DNA from: Halorubrum lacusprofundi ATCC 49239
GTDB taxonomy: Archaea; Halobacteriota; Halobacteria; Halobacteriales; Haloferacaceae
Length of the DNA: 64,000 nucleotides
Reading direction: 5' to 3'
NCBI RefSeq assembly: GCF_000022205.1
Contig: NC_012029.1
Span: forward strand, 930,001-994,000
The position numbers and the translations under genes are program-made. Under the pieces are notes generated by a model. That model did not search any database. It had not been told where the DNA came from and was given only the letters and a program-made list of their open reading frames with translations. Below, piece by piece: positions 43,722-52,656 of this stretch (positions are counted from its first letter, which is position 1; each line of letters begins with the position of its first letter).

Positions 43722-43737
43722 AAACAGATTCGCGGTC

Positions 43738-44850
43738 GTGCTGTATACAGGTCGTCCTGAAGATACCGATCTTATCCAAACCGTCGTAGAGCGTCTGTTC
43801 GACAACCTCAACGGACTCTCCAAACTCAAGGAGAACGGCTACGGCGTCGGTCAGCTCAAGTGGAAGCCGCCACGAAAGTTTCGCAGTTTCACGTACAGTC
43901 AGTCTGGCTTCAAGCTCGACAAGAAGGGCGGTCAGACTGTCCTGTCGCTCTCGAAACTCGCGGACATCCCAATTCGGCTCCACCGCGCCCTCCCCGACGA
44001 CACTACACTCAAACAGGTCACAGTCAAGAAGGAACCGACGGGCGAGTGGTTCGCCACGTTCGGCGTGCAAATAGACCGTGAACCGCCCGAAACCCCCGAG
44101 AATCCCGAGACGTGCGTCGGAATCGACGAGGGGATTCTCAAGTATGCCCACGACACGGATGGAACCGCCGTGGGGTCGCTCGATCTCTCCGTCGAGCGTG
44201 ACCGCTTGGAGCGCGAGCAACGGAAGCTCTCACGCAAGCAACACGGGTCGAACAATTACGAGAAGCAACGACGGCGCGTCGCGAAGTATCACGCTGATCT
44301 GCGGCGGAAACGCCGCGACTTCTTGCACAAACTCTCGGCGTACTACGCGCGGGAGTACGATCTCGTGGCGGTCGAAGATCTGAACGTGAAGGAGATGATG
44401 GAATCGCCGTCGAACAGCCGCAACACCGCGTCTGCCGCGTGGCGAACGTTCCTCTCGTTGCTCGAATACAAGTGCAAGCGAGAGAGGACGCATTTCGTGG
44501 CGGTCAACCCGAGAGGGACGACCAAGGAGTGTGCGTCCTGCGGCGTCTCGACGGAGAAGCCATTGTGGGTCCGTGGACATTCCTGTCCCGCGTGCGGTTT
44601 CGAGGCGGACAGGGACGCGAACGCGGCGTGGAACATTCTTTCTGGCGGCCTCGAAGATATAGGAGTGGGACACTCCGAATCACCGTCCTCAGAATCGCGA
44701 AGCGATTCTGATGTGCGGACGAGAGCTTTGCTCTCGTCAACGCCTGTGGAGACTGCGCTCCCTGTGGATACGCCCGTATCTGCAAAGCACGTCGTGGAAA
44801 CAGGAAGCCCTACCCTCGAGGAGCGAACGACATCAGCCGTGAGCGAGTAG
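43738..44850 (+). CDS. tnpB: RNA-guided nuclease TnpB, N-terminally truncated
   Basis: 370 residues visible from a chance GTG. The RuvC triad is intact (D130 in VGIDEGILKYA, E213 in VAVEDLNVKE, DRD at 291-293), and the zinc finger has C265, C268, C283 and C286. The part before about LQTVVERLFDNLNGL of full-length relatives, roughly 80-100 residues of the wedge/REC region, is missing, so RNA or target-motif binding is probably lost. The C-terminal tail (TPVETALPVDTPVSAKHVVE) is typical of haloarchaeal TnpB. Likely a decaying gene. Confidence 0.85.
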   Translation: MLYTGRPEDTDLIQTVVERLFDNLNGLSKLKENGYGVGQLKWKPPRKFRSFTYSQSGFKLDKKGGQTVLSLSKLADIPIRLHRALPDDTTLKQVTVKKEPTGEWFATFGVQIDREPPETPENPETCVGIDEGILKYAHDTDGTAVGSLDLSVERDRLEREQRKLSRKQHGSNNYEKQRRRVAKYHADLRRKRRDFLHKLSAYYAREYDLVAVEDLNVKEMMESPSNSRNTASAAWRTFLSLLEYKCKRERTHFVAVNPRGTTKECASCGVSTEKPLWVRGHSCPACGFEADRDANAAWNILSGGLEDIGVGHSESPSSESRSDSDVRTRALLSSTPVETALPVDTPVSAKHVVETGSPTLEERTTSAVSE

Positions 44851-44870
44851 GGTAGGGTAGTTCACTAGAG
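44700..44870 (+). ncRNA. Putative omega-RNA at the 3' end of tnpB
   Basis: In this family a guide RNA is made from the 3' end of tnpB and the right end of the element. Here a stem CCCTACCC (808-815 after 44000) pairs with GGGTAGGG (850-857), extended by three more pairs, and the tnpB stop codon lies within the right arm. The sequence after about 44860 would be the guide. Extent is a guess. Confidence 0.4.
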
Positions 44871-45002
44871 TATATGCTCCAGGGCTATTCTCCGTGGTAA
44901 GTGCAATCCAGACGAGAGCGCATATCGCGAGCGGCAGCGCTCTCTTCATGACCCCAGATCGGGTGAAAAATGCAGGTTACTGAGGATCAGGGCGGATGAA
45001 AA

Positions 45003-46883
45003 TCAAGCAGAACCTGGATCGAACACCCAAATCATGTTGTTCTCGTGACCACGATTACCCGTATCCTCGCCAATGACGACCCGTCCGTCGTCCATGACAA
45101 CGATGTTGTCAGGTTCGGCAATCGTGTTCTCCACGTCGAGTGAGGTTTGCCCACTCATGGCCATCGATTTTGCCAGATTCATCGTGCCCTTTAAACGACC
45201 TTGGTCTTCGTCGTCCTTTGTCGGGTTGAACGCGCACGATTGGCACGCCTTGTCGTTAGCGTTCGGATTCGCGTCGTAGGGACAGCCACCACAGATATTG
45301 GCCTCCGGCCCACCGGTGACGATCGGCTCCATCTCGCTGATGTCGTAATCGCTCTCCAGTGGCATTCGGTAGACGGCACCCCATTCGTCGCCGTTAAGCT
45401 GGATGTCGCCCTCGTCGTCGCCCATCGTTCGGTTGGTGTTCGACATGGCGACGTACATGTAGTCCTCGCCCGCTTCGGCACCGCGCCGGATGTTGATCCC
45501 CTCCATCTTGCGGAATTCCGTCGTTGCGCCTTTCCGCATTGCGGCCTGTCGACACTGGAGGAAGGCGACGCGGTCGTCGTCTGCGTCCCCTGCGGCCCAC
45601 TCGTCCATCTCCCCTTCGGAGATATACGAGTTCTCACCGTCCTCGTAGTCCGCCTGGGTGATGTCGTCGTACTCGGCAATCCACTTCTCGATTTCCTCGT
45701 CGCTGGCGTGCCCGAGTTCGATCCACTCGATGCCGAAGCTGACCTTGTCGGGATCGCCGCCGAGCGGTCCCTTTTGAGTGGCCTTCGCAGCGTATAGCGT
45801 TCCTGAGGAAAGGTCACCCTTCTCGTCGGCGACAAATTTGTAGAAGCCACGGGCGGTCCCGTCGGAGGTGGTGTAGGCGGTCTTCTCGTCCGGCATGACG
45901 ACCGCGTTCTCGTGCGTCGAGCGACCGAGTGCGAACCGCTTCTCGGGTATCGGCTCCTCGCTTTCCGGCTCTTTCAGTTCGACGATGTACCCGTAGCGGT
46001 ACGGGTTCGGGAACTTATCGGCAAAGATGCCGTCATCGTTTCGTTCGTGGCCGAGGTGCCGTGCAAGCCGCTCGACACCGCCTTTGTATTGCCAGTCAGG
46101 GTTGTTCCACACCGGCGTATCCGGAATGGAGTAGTTCTCCTCGGAGGTCAGCGGGGTGCCCCACGGAGAGACGGTCCCGAAGCAGTTGACCCAGGTTCCT
46201 TCCACGGCGGAAAAGTCGAGATTCTCCATGCCGAGAACCCGCCACGTGCCGTTACGGCCGTTCTGCTGCAGGTGAACTCGCGTCATCGCTCCCGGACGGT
46301 GTTCCCAGTTGGTGAACAGGTAGCCTTCGTCGGGTTCCTCGCTCGATGGGACGTAGCCGTTGAAATCGGGGTTGATCTGTCCGGTGAGCGAGTCGCCCTC
46401 AGGTGTGTAGACCGATCCCAGTTCCTCGCCGTCGTCGGTCTCGTCGCCGCCGGTCGCAAGCCGCTGATAGTCACCCAGTGCCGTCCGCACCCGCTGGTCG
46501 TACGGCTCGGGTACTCCGTCGCCGTCGTCGCTGTAATCGTCGTCGTCTCCCTCGGGAATCTGGACGCTCTGGAAATCCCTGGGGAGCTGGTTCATGTCTA
46601 CTCCCGTGACTGCGCCGAGAATTCCCGGTTCGTCCTCCCCGTCGAGGTTCGCGTCCGGGTGCTGGACGTTGAAGAAGAACCGCCCGTCCTCGGTGATGAA
46701 CATGCCAGTGATCTCAGCACCGATGATGGTCGTCGCAAAGCGGTTGAGCGTCGCTCCTTCCTGTTCGATGCCGTGGCCTTGGCCTTCTGCCTCTTTGCCA
46801 GCCACACTGCCCGCTGTCTGGCTCGCCGCCGCTAACGCGGCTAGACTCGATACGACTGTGCGCCGGGTATAGTTGTTTGGCAT
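45003..46883 (-). CDS. Tat-exported PhoX-like protein (DUF839)
   Basis: 626 residues. The Tat signal TRRTVVSSLAALAAASQTAG (6-25) is followed by the long beta-propeller of the DUF839/PhoX family, with acidic calcium-type loops (NPNANDKACQSC, DDGRVVIGEDTGNRG). It has four cysteines clustered near 545-565 (CGGCPYDANPN, CQSCAF). PhoX enzymes are Ca/Fe-dependent alkaline phosphatases, but many DUF839 proteins are untested, so the substrate is open. It is less GC-rich than the core genes and lies in the accessory region. tatA is encoded 2.4 kb away. Confidence 0.8.
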   Translation of the reverse strand: MPNNYTRRTVVSSLAALAAASQTAGSVAGKEAEGQGHGIEQEGATLNRFATTIIGAEITGMFITEDGRFFFNVQHPDANLDGEDEPGILGAVTGVDMNQLPRDFQSVQIPEGDDDDYSDDGDGVPEPYDQRVRTALGDYQRLATGGDETDDGEELGSVYTPEGDSLTGQINPDFNGYVPSSEEPDEGYLFTNWEHRPGAMTRVHLQQNGRNGTWRVLGMENLDFSAVEGTWVNCFGTVSPWGTPLTSEENYSIPDTPVWNNPDWQYKGGVERLARHLGHERNDDGIFADKFPNPYRYGYIVELKEPESEEPIPEKRFALGRSTHENAVVMPDEKTAYTTSDGTARGFYKFVADEKGDLSSGTLYAAKATQKGPLGGDPDKVSFGIEWIELGHASDEEIEKWIAEYDDITQADYEDGENSYISEGEMDEWAAGDADDDRVAFLQCRQAAMRKGATTEFRKMEGINIRRGAEAGEDYMYVAMSNTNRTMGDDEGDIQLNGDEWGAVYRMPLESDYDISEMEPIVTGGPEANICGGCPYDANPNANDKACQSCAFNPTKDDEDQGRLKGTMNLAKSMAMSGQTSLDVENTIAEPDNIVVMDDGRVVIGEDTGNRGHENNMIWVFDPGSA

Positions 46884-47188
46884 CCAAGTCAGCCATTATC
46901 CACGTTCGTATTAATTTATTATATTTCTTATATGTTTGGCGAGGGACACGCTCGTTCCCCCAAGTAGTAATATAGAGGTCTACTTCCCGCTGCTTCTCCT
47001 GTTCGACCTTCCACTCACAGTTAGCTTGAATACTGAAGAATCCGGCCGCTGATCACGAACTGCACTGTTAAACCACGGAAGTACTGTTAAACCGCGAGTC
47101 AGACGAATTGATAGGCGCTTAAGCCCGTCTGACGAGGTCGATCCTTGCCCGGTATTATCAATCGGCTGGACGCAAAGATGATGGTATT
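46884..47188. promoter_or_regulatory. AT-rich intergenic region between phoX-like gene and NTPase remnant
   Basis: The 305 bases hold no gene. ATTAATTTATTATA (46909-46923) lies at promoter distance before the PhoX-like gene on the minus strand. Two related short blocks, CTGTTAAACCACGG (47065) and CTGTTAAACCGCGA (47084), are followed by an inverted repeat GTCAGACG...CGTCTGAC (47098-47135). GGTATTAT occurs twice just before the NTPase start. Confidence 0.45.
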
Positions 47189-48182
47189 ATGAAGGATAGT
47201 GCCGTCGAAAGGGGGCCTTGGGGATCGGACGTCGATGTCCCCACGCTCCTCGGTGACGACCACGAGGCGTTCGAGGCGGTCCTCTCGGGCGAGAAGACCG
47301 GGCCGGTTGCCGTCGTGGGCGATCCCTTCTCCGGACGTGGGTCCGTCCTCGACCGTGCTGTGCGGGATCTGGACGCAACCCGGGTTAGCCTTGATCCGGG
47401 CGACGGAGTTGACCAAACCCGGGCGAGGATCAACGGGGGCCAGTTGTGATAGAGGACTGCCAGCACCTGTACGAGCGTCGCATCGGCGGCTTCGAGGCGC
47501 TGTCTGCGTTTCTCGACGAGCTGGCGAACGCCGATGTGACAGTGGTGACCGGCTGGAACCGGTACGCGTGGGTGTACCTCGCGGCGGTGCAGGCACTCGA
47601 CCGGGAGTTTCTCGTCACCGTTGAGATCCAGCCCTTCCCGAAGAACGGATCGCGGAACTCGTGCTAGATCGGGACGACGAACTGCCGGCGTTCGTCGAAG
47701 ACGACCCCGAACGGGGCGGCTTGGTCGTCGCGACGCGCCACGAGATTGGCTGGCGGGACTGGTCGGTCTCGGTGCCGGTCCCTATGCTGAGCCCAGTTGG
47801 AATCAGGGATCTGTTTTCGGATAGAAACCTGGGTCCAAAGGACGTAACGTTCAGCCGGCTCGCTGCTGTTTCGAACGGGAACCTCGGCGTCGCCACGGCC
47901 ATCTGGGAGGCCCGAAAGGGATCGGAGGTGCGCCCGAGCGACATGACCGTCCCCGAGCCCGACCGGGACCTGAACCGCGAGGAGGCGTTCTGCCTGCGGA
48001 TCGTACTCGCGAAAGAGCGGGTCAAGCGGGAACAGCTCTCGACGATCATCGATACACTCGACCGGGTCCTCGGGCGCCTCTCGCGCGCCGGCCTCGTCAC
48101 GGTCGAAGACGATATTGTGGAACTGGTACCGGCGGCAGTGCCGGCCGCCGCGACGGCGACCGAACGGGGGCGGATACTGTGA
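47189..48182 (+). pseudogene. P-loop NTPase with C-terminal winged helix, two frameshifts
   Basis: Three overlapping frames join into one protein of about 330 residues if one base is restored near 47444 and one near 47642. The N-terminal part has a degenerate Walker A (GDPFSGRGS) and the middle a Walker B-like VIEDCQHLYERR. The C-terminal 100 residues look like a winged helix (LNREEAFCLRIVLAKERVKREQLSTII, LSRAGLVTV). In the current sequence the product would be cut after about 86 residues. It is followed by an MscS-like gene with overlapping stop and start. Confidence 0.65.
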
Positions 48183-48987
48183 CCGTGCTCCAGGGTCTGG
48201 TAGACATCGGGATCGCCCAGGAGACGCTCACGAGAATGGCAGGCGTACTCGTAGCCGCGTACCTGGCCACTTGGTCGTCGGGTACCTGCTCACGGCGGTC
48301 GCCGAGCGCCTTCCCCGCCGACGGATCAGCATCAAGATTATTATTCCGATCGCGCGGGTTCTCATCTTCGGAACCGCGGCGTATCTGGTCTTGGGACCGT
48401 TGCTCCGACTATCGGCCGCACAGTTGCTCGCAGTGTCGGGACTGTTCGGGGCGGCTCTGGGGTTCGGCCTGAAGGACCTCTTCGCGGGGATAATCGGTGG
48501 GCTGGTGCTCGTGACCGAGCGTCCCTACCAGGTCGGCGACAAGATCACCATCGACGACGACCACGGCGAGGTAACCGACATCGACCTCCGGGCGACGACA
48601 CTGAGGACGCCCGACGACAGCGCCGTAAGTGTCCCGAACGCAACGATGTTCACTGCGAACGTCTCGAACGCCAACAACGGCCAGCCGGAGATGATGGTCG
48701 TCGTTGAACTCGCGGTCACTGCCTCTGCTGACGTCGAACGAGTGAGTGCGATCGTCAAGGAGGCCATGATGACCTCGAAGTACGTCTACGTCGACGACGA
48801 CCACCCGTTCGTGGTCCTGATCGAGGACGAGTCCTACTATCGGACGATTCGCGGCAAGGCGTATGTGGCCGACGTGCGCGACGAGTTCGCATTCGCCTCA
48901 GACGTGACAGAGCGCTCGATGGCCGTCTTCGACAGCGAAGGGGTCGAAATGCCCGAGGCGCCCGTTCACGTCTCCGAACACCGCTGA
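48179..48987 (+). pseudogene. MscS-type mechanosensitive channel, frameshifted
   Basis: A frame starting at the GTG at 48179 encodes VTVLQGLVDIGIAQETL and then AAYLAT, after which the channel continues one frame over as LVVGYLLTAVAERLPRR. One missing base near 48270 would restore about 269 residues. The pore helix LLAVSGLFGAALGFGLKDLFAG and the beta domain PYQVGDKITIDDDHGEV are intact. Its GTG overlaps the NTPase stop by 4 nt, so the two were a coupled operon. Confidence 0.7.
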
Positions 48988-49106
48988 GTCTGCGTGTCGC
49001 CTGTCGGCTTCGCCCGACTGAAGCGAGTCTCTCGAAGATCTATTCTGGAACTTATCACTATCTGTCGATGGCATCGACTCTCTTGGACAGCCCTTTCTGT
49101 ATGAAC

Positions 49107-49120: not shown

Positions 49121-49185
49121 CCTCGCGAGTGAACGGAGTGAGCGTGGAGCCAGTCGCGGCCGTGACTGAGCGTTAGCGAAGGAGC

Positions 49186-49257
49186 GGGCACGGCGGGATT
49201 CGAACCCGCGATCGAGAGGTTAGGAACCTCTCGCCCTGTCCGCTAGGCCACGCGCCC
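49186..49257 (-). tRNA. tRNA-Arg (CCT)
   Basis: The minus strand folds as a 72-nt cloverleaf: acceptor GGGCGCG/CGTGCCC, D arm GGCCTAGCGGACAGGGC, anticodon stem GAGAGG/CCTCTC around the loop TTCCTAA with anticodon CCT, and T arm CGGGTTCGAATCCCG. It decodes AGG arginine codons. CCA is not encoded and no intron is present. Confidence 0.92.
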
Positions 49258-49310
49258 AAAACAAGTGAAGAAAACGTCGCTGCGGGGATAGGCCGGCACC
49301 GCGGTGCCGA

Positions 49311-49595
49311 TTATGCGCTGGTCTCTTTCTCGGTCTCAGTCTCGAACTCGTCGTCGTCGTCGTTGACCGTCGAGTCGGTCTCGAGCGGCGACTCGTTCTC
49401 ATCGTCGCTCTGCATCTGCTGTAGTTCGTCCTCGACCTGTTCGCGCCCCTTCTTGAATTCGCCCATCGCTTGGCCGGTCGATCGAGCGAGCTTCGGGATC
49501 TTGTTCGCCCCGAACAGCAGGACCAACACGAGCAGGATGATGAGGAGTTCCGGGCCCGCCGGAATGCCGCCGATCAGTGGAATCGCACTTACCAT
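49311..49595 (-). CDS. tatA: Sec-independent protein translocase TatA
   Basis: 94 residues. A single N-terminal helix (about 14-29, ELLIILLVLVLLFGANKIP) precedes the FGANKIPKLARSTGQAMGEFKKG hinge and amphipathic helix, the TatA signature, followed by an acidic tail. TatA forms the translocation pore for folded proteins with RR signals. Haloarchaea use Tat for most secreted proteins. The PhoX-like protein and the lipoprotein in this window both carry such signals. Confidence 0.88.
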   Translation of the reverse strand: MVSAIPLIGGIPAGPELLIILLVLVLLFGANKIPKLARSTGQAMGEFKKGREQVEDELQQMQSDDENESPLETDSTVNDDDDEFETETEKETSA

Positions 49596-49786
49596 CTCTA
49601 CACCACCGTAGCTCTCTGGTAACTATAGTCTTTTTGCCTCGATGAACGAACTACAGATGTCGTCCGAGCGCTCCCAACCCCATCGATCACGGCGATCCCA
49701 TGTTCGAGGAGATTCGCACCGGGCCCACCCGCCGAACCCGCTGCCGACGGCGAAACCATGATACTTCGTCGCCGCAACCGGTCTGT

Positions 49787-50257
49787 ATGACCGATGTCGG
49801 CGACGACGCCCCGACCTTCACCGCCTCGCTCGTGACCGACGAGATCGAACCGTTCGACCTGTCTGACCGCCTCGGCGACGAGCCGGTCGTGCTCGCCTTC
49901 TTCCCGGCCGCCTTCTCGAACACCTGCACGGACGAGATGGAGGCGCTCCGGGACGGGTTCGAACGCGACGACTGCACCCTGTTCGGCGTGAGCACCGACC
50001 TCCCACACGCGCTGGCCGCCTACCGGGACCAGTACGACCTCCCGTTCGCGCTCGTCGGCGACCCGGCTCACCGCGCGATCGAGGCGTACGACGCGATCGA
50101 GTCGTTCGAGCACTACGGCGTCGACACGGTCGCGCGCCGCGCGGTCTTCGTGATCGACGGTGACGGCGTCGTGACGTACCGGTGGCTCGCCGATAACTCC
50201 GGACAGGAGCCCGACTACGACGCACTCGACGCGGCAGTCGACGACGCGAGCCCTTGA
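49787..50257 (+). CDS. Peroxiredoxin (AhpC/TSA family)
   Basis: 156 residues of the thioredoxin fold. The peroxidatic cysteine is C47 in PAAFSNTCTDEM; a second cysteine, C63, is not in a standard resolving position. The C-terminal half contains FALVGDPAHRAIEAYDA and VFVIDGDGVVTYRW, typical of the BCP/PrxQ and AhpE groups. It reduces peroxides using a thiol partner. The ATG at 49787 fits family length; an upstream in-frame ATG adds Arg-rich sequence. Confidence 0.85.
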   Translation: MTDVGDDAPTFTASLVTDEIEPFDLSDRLGDEPVVLAFFPAAFSNTCTDEMEALRDGFERDDCTLFGVSTDLPHALAAYRDQYDLPFALVGDPAHRAIEAYDAIESFEHYGVDTVARRAVFVIDGDGVVTYRWLADNSGQEPDYDALDAAVDDASP

Positions 50258-50590
50258 CATCCTCCCCGCGCTGAAGCGCGAGGATTCCCACGGCACCGCA
50301 CCGCTGGGTTGGGATGTTTACGGTTTGTAGCTACCACATTGGGCGGCTACTGGCTGTGCCAATCAGCCGTTACTCCTATCCCGGCATGGGATTCGGAGAT
50401 ACTTTTGTTGACTGCACCCGATTCCGACACAGAAGGGGTGCCTTCTGCTTGGAACCGTCGAATCCCGATATTGTCCGATTGATTGGGCGGGCAGGCCGCC
50501 TCGGTTTATCGTTAATACAACAAGCGGCTAATTAAATCCTTGCAATGTCGGATTCATCCCCGCGCTGAAGCGCGAGGCTTTCTCCTTGAT
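50258..50590. mobile_element. Mobile-element remnant or MITE with CGCGCTGAAGCGCG hairpin ends
   Basis: Near-identical blocks CCCCGCGCTGAAGCGCGAGG, each a short hairpin, lie at 50268-50287 and 50558-50577 in the same orientation. Such sequences recur at ends of haloarchaeal IS200/IS605-type elements. The 0.3 kb between has lower GC and only a doubtful frame (50314-50535, with MGFGDTFVDCTRFRHRRG). No transposase is seen, so this is a remnant or a non-autonomous element. Confidence 0.6.
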
Positions 50591-50643
50591 TCTCCGTAAA
50601 AATACGCTTACCGCCGGCCGCGCGATCCGGTGGCCTCTGGCCG

Positions 50644-52656
50644 TCAGTTCGGGTCGCGGAGCCCGTCGAGCGCCTTCGGGTTCTCCATCGACGAGAGATC
50701 TCCGGGGTCCTCGCCCTTATAAATCGACGCGATCGCGCGTCGGATGATCTTCCCGGACTGCGTCTTCGGGAAGGCGTCGACGAACAGCAGCTCGCGCGGT
50801 CGGAACGGCTTCCCGTGTTCCTCGCCGACGAGCGTCCGCAGCTCCTCTCGGAGGTCGTCGCTCGGCTCAATGTGGGGTTCGAGCACAACGTACGCGACCA
50901 CTGCGGTCCCGGTGGTGTCGTCGGGGACGCCGACTGCGGCCGCCTGGTTGACGGCGTCGTGGTCGATGAGTACGCCTTCGATCTCGGCCGGGCCGACCTT
51001 TCGGCCGGCGACGTTCAAGGCGTCGTCGGCGCGTCCGTGGAGGAACCAGAAGCCGTCTGCGTCCTTCTGTGCGAAGTCGCCGTGGTCCCACAGATCCTCC
51101 CACGTCGACCAGTACTCCTTCAAATAGCGCTCGTCGCCCGACCACAGCGACTTCGTCATCGAGGGACAGGAGTCGCGCGCGACGAGGTAGCCGCGCTCGC
51201 CCGACTCTTTGATCGACTCGCCACTCTCGTCGACGATATCGATGTCCATCCCGAGCCCCGGACCGCCCAGCGTGCAGGGTTTCAGCGGCTGGTTCGGCAT
51301 TGGCATGAGGAAGCAGCCGCAGATCTCCGTGCCGCCAGAGATGTTGATGATCGGGCAGTCGCCGCCGCCGACCGCGTCGTAGAACCAGCGCCACGATTCG
51401 GGATCCCACGGCTCGCCGGTCGAGCCCAAGATTCGGAGTGAGGAGAGATCGTGGTCCTCGACCCATTCGTCTCCGTGCTTGCGGAGCGCCCGGATCGCGG
51501 TCGGCGAGATGCCGAACTGCGTAATTCCGTGTCGGTCGATCATCTCCCAGAAGCGGTCCGGCTCCGGGTGGTCTGGTGCACCCTCGTACATCACCACCGT
51601 CCCGCCGGACGCGTGGTTCCCGATCAGCGTCCACGGCCCCATCATCCAGCCGATGTCGGAGACCCAGAAGAACCGGTCGGCCGGCTTCTGGTCGAAGCCG
51701 AAGTGGATCTCCTTGGCGCACTGCGTGAGGACGCCCGCGTGGGTGTGGACGATCCCCTTCGGCTCGCCGGTGGTCCCGGAGGAGTACAACAGCATGGACT
51801 CCTGATCGCTCGGGAGCCGCTTCGTCTCGTAGTCGACCGACCGCGACTCGATCGCCTCGGTCCACGTCACGTCGCGATCAGGGTTCCACGGAACCGGGTC
51901 CGCAGCGTCGCCCTCCGGCGTCGCGCCCAAGCGGTCGTAGACGACGACGTCATCGACGTGGCCGGCTGCCTCTATCGCCTCGTCGGCGGTCGCTTTCAGT
52001 CGCACCTCGCTCCCGCGACGGTAGAACCCGTCCCCGGTGAACAGGACCGACGGCTCGGCGTCTGCGATCCGAGTCGCCGTCGCCTCCGTGCCGAAGCCGG
52101 AGAAAATCGGCACTGCGATCGCGCCCACCTTTAAACAACCGTAGAGGATCGAGACGACCTCGGGCACCATCGGCATATACAACCCGACCGTGTCTCCGGT
52201 CTCGATCCCGACCGACTCCAAGTAGTTGGCGACGCGGTTGGTCTGTCGGGCCAGTTCGTGGAACGTGACTTCCCTGATATCGCCGGGCTCGCCCTCCCAG
52301 ATCAGCGCGACTCGGTTGCGGTTCGGCGAGTCGACGGCAGCGTGTCGGTCGACGACGTTGTGCGCGACGTTGATCTCGCCGCCGGGGTACCAGTCGGTGA
52401 ACTGCGGCCCTCCGCTGTCGTCGCGCACTGCGTCGTACTCGGTGTAGAAGTCGATGTCGAGGTAGTCGACGATCTCGTCCCAGAACCAGTCGACGCCGGA
52501 GGCCGGCTCGCCGTCGATCCCCGAGGTGGTCCGGGCGATGAGATCCTCGTAGTCGTCGATGCCGTACTCGCGCATGAACGCAGCGACGTTCGTCGACTCG
52601 GCGAACGCCTCGCTCGGCTCGTGTACGATCTCGTCTATTCCCTCGTACTCGTCCAT
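50644..52656 (-). CDS. AMP-forming acyl-CoA synthetase (acetyl-CoA synthetase-like)
   Basis: 670 residues of the ANL adenylating superfamily. Motifs include LLYSSGTTGEPKGIVHTHAG (about 287-306), YWSTWEDLWDHGDFAQKD and GRADDALNVAGRKVGPAEIEG (about 545-565), with the C-terminal catalytic lysine in KTQSGKIIRR. It activates a carboxylic acid with ATP and CoA. The length and the TDVGWMMG-like SDIGWMMGPW segment fit acetyl-CoA synthetase or a related short-chain ligase. Confidence 0.87.
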   Translation of the reverse strand: MDEYEGIDEIVHEPSEAFAESTNVAAFMREYGIDDYEDLIARTTSGIDGEPASGVDWFWDEIVDYLDIDFYTEYDAVRDDSGGPQFTDWYPGGEINVAHNVVDRHAAVDSPNRNRVALIWEGEPGDIREVTFHELARQTNRVANYLESVGIETGDTVGLYMPMVPEVVSILYGCLKVGAIAVPIFSGFGTEATATRIADAEPSVLFTGDGFYRRGSEVRLKATADEAIEAAGHVDDVVVYDRLGATPEGDAADPVPWNPDRDVTWTEAIESRSVDYETKRLPSDQESMLLYSSGTTGEPKGIVHTHAGVLTQCAKEIHFGFDQKPADRFFWVSDIGWMMGPWTLIGNHASGGTVVMYEGAPDHPEPDRFWEMIDRHGITQFGISPTAIRALRKHGDEWVEDHDLSSLRILGSTGEPWDPESWRWFYDAVGGGDCPIINISGGTEICGCFLMPMPNQPLKPCTLGGPGLGMDIDIVDESGESIKESGERGYLVARDSCPSMTKSLWSGDERYLKEYWSTWEDLWDHGDFAQKDADGFWFLHGRADDALNVAGRKVGPAEIEGVLIDHDAVNQAAAVGVPDDTTGTAVVAYVVLEPHIEPSDDLREELRTLVGEEHGKPFRPRELLFVDAFPKTQSGKIIRRAIASIYKGEDPGDLSSMENPKALDGLRDPN

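Follow-up and report, generated by a model that had tools for sequence, protein, structure and literature searches.

Mechanosensitive channels of the MscS family are known as textbook membrane-tension valves. In the archaeon Halorubrum lacusprofundi, whose genome of 3.69 Mb is assembled in three contigs, one MscS gene overlaps a preceding NTPase-like gene, and both of them are interrupted by frame changes. This raises the question of what kind of unit the two genes form, and whether the unit has really decayed. The stretch of 64,000 nucleotides analyzed here, hereafter called the window, covers positions 930,001–994,000 of contig NC_012029.1, and coordinates are counted from its first letter. 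We consider it reasonably probable that the locus is a decayed copy of a two-gene module shared across domains, in which a distinct group of MscS channels goes together with a dedicated AAA+ partner serving as its regulatory subunit; that the partner regulates the channel is what we infer.

The Broken Gene Pair

The partner gene starts at 47189 and stops at 48180–48182, and the channel gene runs from a GTG start at 48179 to a stop at 48985–48987. The locus contains the following features.

47189..48182, plus strand: type I AAA+-like partner gene, broken, homologous to intact proteins mostly of about 290–370 aa
about 47189–47443, 47428–47643 and 47628–48182, plus strand: pieces of the partner gene in three frames (frame reading, profile matches)
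47318..47344, plus strand: degenerate Walker A motif GDPFSGRGS, Arg replacing Lys (translation, alignment column counts)
47443..47481, plus strand: Walker B-like strand and conserved EDCxxLYxRR motif (translation, alignment)
47637..48179, plus strand: lid with (S/N)GN(L/P)GVA box and C-terminal winged helix (translation; predicted fold of the intact homolog L026)
48179..48987, plus strand: MscS channel gene with one break near 48262–48274 (Pfam match, frame reading)
48179..48182, plus strand: GTGA, 4-nt stop/start overlap of the partner and channel genes (frame reading)

An earlier note on this DNA had described an NTPase gene ending in a 4-nt overlap with an MscS gene, and frame reading bears this out. 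The frame breaks that it placed at about 47444, 47642, and 48270 agree with three one-base steps, all in the same direction with both strands read, two of them in the partner gene (about 47428–47443 and 47628–47643) and one in the channel gene (48262–48274). A profile built from intact relatives matches the window partner in three successive pieces and frames, at model positions 4–78, 74–145, and 141–326, and the beta domain and C-terminal domain of the channel are open in frame from 48265. The second gene is indeed MscS: its product matches PF00924 (E 6.9e-19, 68.2 bits against a cut-off of 20.2) and, over the Pfam cut-off, PF21082 (E 3e-4), with a weak match (0.63) of PF21088 to the pore helix TM3 region. 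The pieces of the partner gave no Pfam or NCBIfam match at E 1. A Walker A motif requires lysine; the Walker A-like GDPFSGRGS pointed out in the earlier note is present, but it is degenerate, with Arg where Lys is needed.

Decay or Sequencing Error

Should the three frame changes be sequencing errors, the operon would be whole in this genome, and the fact that every change is a single step fits this reading. Against it stands the pattern of substitutions. When codons are compared one at a time and each piece is treated separately, the window copy carries 27 nonsynonymous against 11 synonymous private changes, whereas its four close intact relatives (L024–L027) together carry 52 against 85 (Fisher p=0.0004); the numbers are small, and among the single intact copies (17:15, 9:20, 9:17, and 17:33) the ratio of L024, 17:15, is also fairly high. 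Because sequencing errors of the indel type would not raise this ratio, real decay is favored. A sequencing artifact is hence judged very unlikely on this test, and the decay claimed in the earlier note looks real as far as the private changes tell.

Coding density in the same genome also speaks against the error reading, in a blunt way. Coding sequence makes up 77–90% of the window and of nine 20-kb stretches, which together received nine frame-shift calls (four no more than 250 bases from the start of a stretch) in a scan by a frame-shift HMM that was too permissive and did not call the known breaks at the pair locus as shifts, and therefore shows normal coding density only. A second scan for adjacent gene pairs lacking a nearby ATG or GTG start flagged five in the window and four in the nine stretches; with gaps of 8–58 nt throughout, these look like ordinary neighbors. 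Across the 20 pair-bearing genomes of the order, the window copy is the sole one whose partner is matched in several pieces. As a separate observation, locus L065 (genome G474) has its partner gene in two frames and is possibly a second decayed or frame-shifted copy.

An Island Beside tRNA-Arg

The surroundings of the pair were compared with those in other members of the genus, and four features are relevant here.

43726..49105, no strand: inserted island (limits approximate) that carries the pair together with TnpB and a PhoX-like gene and is missing from this site in 9/9 genus-mates compared
43738..44850, plus strand: TnpB-type gene at the island's left end (OrfB_IS605 E 2.7e-25, Cas12f1-like TNB 2.4e-21)
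45003..46883, minus strand: PhoX-like gene within the island (profile match)
49184..49257, minus strand: tRNA-Arg (CCT) adjoining the island

At all nine genus-mate loci compared, the match to the window runs to ~43.7 kb, is followed by 2–321 bases, and resumes from ~49.1 kb, and the DNA to the right of the pair (49166–50300) is matched in 29/29 sampled genomes of the genus, its own included. As judged from these comparisons, the pair sits in an insertion of ~5.4 kb beside tRNA-Arg, and the window copy is horizontally acquired. There are 11 places with an MscS domain in the genome, the channel of the pair included, and thus the loss of one MscS is plausible. The idea that tRNA genes are a common integration site of the pair was rejected: a tRNA lies within the fetched DNA at three of 26 pair loci, so that the link with tRNA-Arg looks special to the window copy.

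Several details of the island are recorded here in their own right. The TnpB-type protein (43738–44850) is possibly an RNA-guided nuclease. At the right edge, 15 bases of the tRNA-Arg 3′ end occur twice, 79 bases apart (49106 and 49185); genus-mates match this stretch too, and it may be an old attachment site. Another small insertion not shared with the genus-mates occupies 50249–50650, and roughly its first 47 bases (50254–50300) are found many times over in genomes of the genus, like the end of a mobile element.

Intact Pairs in Archaea and Bacteria

Intact NTPase–MscS pairs were looked for in other genomes and found. Genome searches scored the best candidates per genome, and in the survey of 392 sampled genomes of the order (best 5–6 candidates each) the channel type (profile A4, E<=1e-35) and the AAA+ partner (profile A2, E<=1e-10) each match 20 genomes; the two sets coincide, the genes lying side by side, and the other 372 genomes have neither gene at these cut-offs. 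A first search with a single protein gave both genes at 19 of 20 loci other than its own, the weak match L023 having neither. Among named genomes and MAGs, the partner is followed by the channel at 27/27 loci, 23 of them archaeal (haloarchaea, one Methanomicrobiales MAG, and two “Euryarchaeota” MAGs) and four bacterial (two Dehalococcoidales MAGs, one Caldilineaceae MAG, and Marinobacter persicus). The partner was further found in 11 of 244 genomes of the order of M. persicus and in three of 251 genomes, one of them weak, of the phylum of the Caldilineaceae MAG; here the channel lies directly behind it at 16 of 17 loci, the weak match L068 being without a channel. These sets share loci (e.g., L007/L024, L006/L027, L008/L028, and L009/L029), and therefore the counts 19/20, 27/27, and 16/17 must not be summed.

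The search was also made from the side of the channel. A channel-only search in the order of M. persicus gave matches in 36 of 234 genomes, and an AAA+-type partner is present at all 30 loci examined among these 36 matches: 11 had already been found via the partner, and 19 belong to a divergent third type, in which both genes share a strand and the partner lies 5′ of the channel. The linkage reaches into Chloroflexota and Pseudomonadota. It is also seen on plasmids: a Salinirubellus plasmid carries a hypothetical protein followed by an MscS gene with a 4-nt overlap, a Caulobacter plasmid an ATP-binding protein (about 860 aa) followed by an MscS gene with the same overlap, and the Novosphingobium plasmid pLA3 an AAA family ATPase (about 1110 aa) with an MscS gene 2 nt behind it. 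The partners on the two alphaproteobacterial plasmids (about 860 and 1110 aa) are much longer and have long N-terminal parts. Judged on gene order, the pairing is more than chance, partner homologs being followed by a channel at nearly all loci.

Two loci deserve separate mention. The Caulobacter plasmid has two tandem MscS genes behind the ATP-binding protein gene (L189, 4628–6471). In Haloferacaceae archaeon XH8, two copies of the pair (L034 and L038) lie in the chromosome record CP132292.1, each within ~65 kb of one of its two ends, and in the L038 copy the channel is split over two frames.

Spacing within the pair was compared over 36 loci, with L023 and L068 (weak and without a channel), L038 (a second copy), and L065 (partner in two frames) excluded from the spacing, motif, and distance counts. 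A start codon for the channel is available at −4, giving a 4-nt overlap, in 17/22 archaeal pairs; L039, L040, and L042 allow −7 only, L037 has −1, and in L043 the genes abut. In 13 of the 14 bacterial pairs the first possible start lies 3–37 nt past the partner stop, and L049 allows −11 or +1. A conserved third gene was considered and rejected: Usp-like stress genes adjoin five of 26 loci, and lie upstream with a 4-nt overlap in L024 and L027, the neighbor in L024, the one locus checked, being confirmed as Usp by Pfam (E 1.6e-59). Usp is the sole recurrent neighbor and is not part of the core module.

A Distinct Group of Channels

In order to place the paired channels among other MscS proteins, 14 genomes with 99 MscS-domain matches were sampled, and among 30 loci examined, 26 lack a nearby partner and four have one. 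The paired channels (55 rows) form one side of a single branch against the unpaired ones (26 rows) with support of 100/100; this split appears in all 200 bootstrap trees and in none of 500 shuffles, in a tree whose bootstrap was not fully settled according to a program warning, where several unpaired rows are long and three paired rows repeat other rows. Since the tree is unrooted, the term clade holds for the paired channels if the root lies outside them. The unpaired set comes from 30 loci in 14 genomes, so that other genomes could hold a channel of the paired group without a partner. Distances between partners and between channels correlate (r=0.95 over 36 pairs), a correlation that joint inheritance and transfer of the two genes would by itself also produce.

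Compared with the known MscS family (E. coli MscS, MscK, and MscM), the window protein shares PF00924 and PF21082 above cut-offs. What sets the paired channels apart is that they separate from the 26 unpaired MscS sampled and that an AAA+ neighbor gene is present in all but two weak cases examined.

Fold and Catalytic States of the Partner

The archaeal (type I) and bacterial type II partners scanned gave no Pfam or NCBIfam match over cut-off, and comparison of profiles with PDB sequences gave no match better than E 0.22 and, for the type III member L169, none at 0.1. ORC/Cdc6 profiles remain below cut-off (Cdc6_lid 0.11 for L043; TIGR02928 0.015 for L169). The model of L026, an intact archaeal homolog (pLDDT 84, pTM 0.80), finds RuvB as its best PDB match by Foldseek (E 1.2e-7), then the Pyrococcus ATPase 2qen (2.8e-6) and ORC1/Cdc6, and in VIA it aligns with p97 N-D1 with Z 13.0 and rmsd 3.6 over 194 aligned residues. 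The model of the type II homolog L049 (pLDDT 76, pTM 0.81) finds Cdc6/Orc1 (E 1.8e-5) as well as 2qen and 2fna, and aligns with NSF in 3j98 (Z 11.5, rmsd 4.2, 198 aligned). From these matches both proteins are AAA+ plus winged helix, and the partner, judged on the predicted folds of the two intact homologs, is an AAA+ protein with a lid and a winged helix, in line with the NTPase with a winged-helix tail that the earlier note had read from the broken gene. The same core, lid, and winged helix are predicted as in ORC/Cdc6, RuvB, and archaeal ATPases (PDB 2v1u, 2qby, 1in4, 2qen, and 2fna); the differences are an identity of 9–16% in the listed Foldseek rows, the lack of the Walker A Lys in types I and II, and the pairing with a channel. 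A profile comparison relates types I/II to type III over a stretch that includes the winged helix and reaches the C-terminus (hhalign probability 99.5, E 1.9e-22, 270 columns), and the homology rests on this comparison, the E-values of type III coming from small per-locus scans.

The three types differ in their catalytic motifs. The Walker A column holds Arg in 22/22 type I partners, neither Lys nor Arg in 14/14 of type II, and Lys in 19/19 of type III, a type found in the order of M. persicus, where this Lys is followed by Ser or Thr in 15 and by Lys in four. The Walker B column holds Asp or Glu in 20/22, 0/14, and 14/19, respectively, with Asn in the other five of type III; G231 and A236 are kept in 55/55 partners. 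Arg in place of the Walker A Lys in all 22 archaeal partners makes ATP hydrolysis by this branch doubtful. Within type III, four members (L174, L176, L177, and L178) show GxxGxGKK rather than GK[ST] together with Asn at the Walker B column, which from the motifs may be a third way in which the ATPase site was weakened.

Winged helices are often DNA-binding, and the AAA+/winged-helix protein could therefore be a transcription regulator of the channel operon and not a subunit of the channel. The C-terminal winged helix in both predicted models, weak HTH profile matches that stay below cut-off (e.g., TrmB E 6e-4 for L183), and the position of the partner as first gene of the unit agree with such a role. 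On the other side, 13 of 19 type III members have an N-terminal 19-residue stretch with a mean hydropathy >2.0 (most frames being cut at the locus start), which suggests membrane anchoring, and the overlap at −4 in most archaeal pairs suggests coupled synthesis; both are indecisive, and we regard the regulator reading as unlikely.

Another possibility follows the logic of MoxR-like proteins, which serve as chaperones of assembly and disassembly: the partner would build or dismantle the channel and not gate it. The AAA+ fold with RuvB/ORC-like matches and the one-to-one linkage with the channel in 20/20 genomes of the order suit a chaperone, but the catalytic Lys is missing in two of three branches, which is hard to square with an energy-driven one, and we hold this reading to be quite unlikely. 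The regulatory subunit remains our preferred reading: the constant presence and tight spacing of the partner suggest that the two proteins form a complex, and the absence of the catalytic Lys in two branches suggests that a binding role outlives hydrolysis.

The Question of Defense

The earlier note was reminded of membrane-effector defense modules, and one form of this idea would be a suicide device in which infection makes a STAND-like sensor open an MscS pore. Type III lends it something, since AAA_22 is over cut-off in three of five members scanned and NACHT in one (L169), and three type III members match PADLOC P-loop proteins weakly (E 0.0012–0.01). The patchy presence (20/392 genomes), the occurrence on plasmids and on an island, the loss in the window genome, and the long N-terminal parts of the alphaproteobacterial partners point in the same direction. 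STAND/NACHT NTPases are defined by C-terminal sensor repeats, however, and types I and II end at the winged helix without such repeats, the channel being a separate gene.

Neither partner nor channel has a PADLOC match at E 0.001 (L049 reaches 0.015), and a scan of viral contigs by one peptide pattern found no relatives. Defense-island context, which the earlier note had proposed to look at, did not emerge either: among 10 neighbors scanned with PADLOC there is one DarG-like match (E 5e-10), a macro-domain protein (PF01661, E 7e-30) at L026 8615–10282, downstream of the intact Halobellus rarus pair and itself a point in favor of defense, while the remaining scanned neighbors are of ordinary kinds (for instance, metallo-beta-lactamase/rhodanese, Na/Ca exchanger, HisRS-like, carboxyl transferase, UbiA, cupin, MOSC, RlmJ, and symporter). 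A defense-island reading is weakly supported at most by the PADLOC scans of partner, channel, and 10 neighbors and by the one-pattern scan of viral contigs, and a defense or suicide module appears improbable to us, to a high degree.

Precedents in the Literature

The nearest precedent found is the haloarchaeal dacZ-mscS2 operon, in which an MscS gene is joined with a signaling gene linked to osmotic balance; the partner there is the c-di-AMP synthase DacZ, whereas in the window-type pair it is an AAA+ protein (PMC6741144). In Halomonas elongata four MscS channels have been characterized, in a paper whose main text does not contain “ATPase” or “AAA” (PMC7174268), and PMC7159879 contains neither “mechanosensitive” nor “MscS”. 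Among the matches listed from the open full-text literature, by their titles and abstract starts, no description of an AAA+–MscS pairing was found.

A Model for the Two-Gene Module

We propose that the partner would sit on the cytoplasmic side of the channel, either setting when the channel may open or assembling it. In type III, with its Walker A Lys and hydrophobic N-terminal stretches, the nucleotide cycle would do the switching; the archaeal Lys-to-Arg form would likely bind nucleotide without normal hydrolysis; and the type II partner may be a pure structural or ligand-sensing pseudo-ATPase. An ancestrally nucleotide-driven partner would in this model have partly turned into a pseudo-ATPase, and it is an assumption of ours, made from the intact motifs on an unrooted tree, that type III is the older state. 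The module would most likely let the nucleotide or stress state of the cell veto or license the MscS valve. In the window genome, it arrived on the ~5.4 kb insertion and is now in the course of being lost. The bolder form of the model, in which this MscS subfamily of archaea and bacteria is no free tension valve but a two-part machine whose opening is licensed by an AAA+ assembly bound to the cytoplasmic cage, ancestrally active and membrane-anchored in type III, changed from Lys to Arg in archaea, and a catalytically dead adaptor in another bacterial branch, is offered tentatively, as a possibility that we would not yet bet on.

Since this MscS group has an adjoining AAA+ gene in the sampled genomes, mechanosensitive channels may be subject to a control linked to energy or nucleotides, and such control may be old. 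Halobellus, Haloplanus, Halorubrum, and Marinobacter hold intact pairs, which make the module directly testable, and if the model is true, the three catalytic states would provide a natural series on the role of ATP in gating a mechanosensitive channel.
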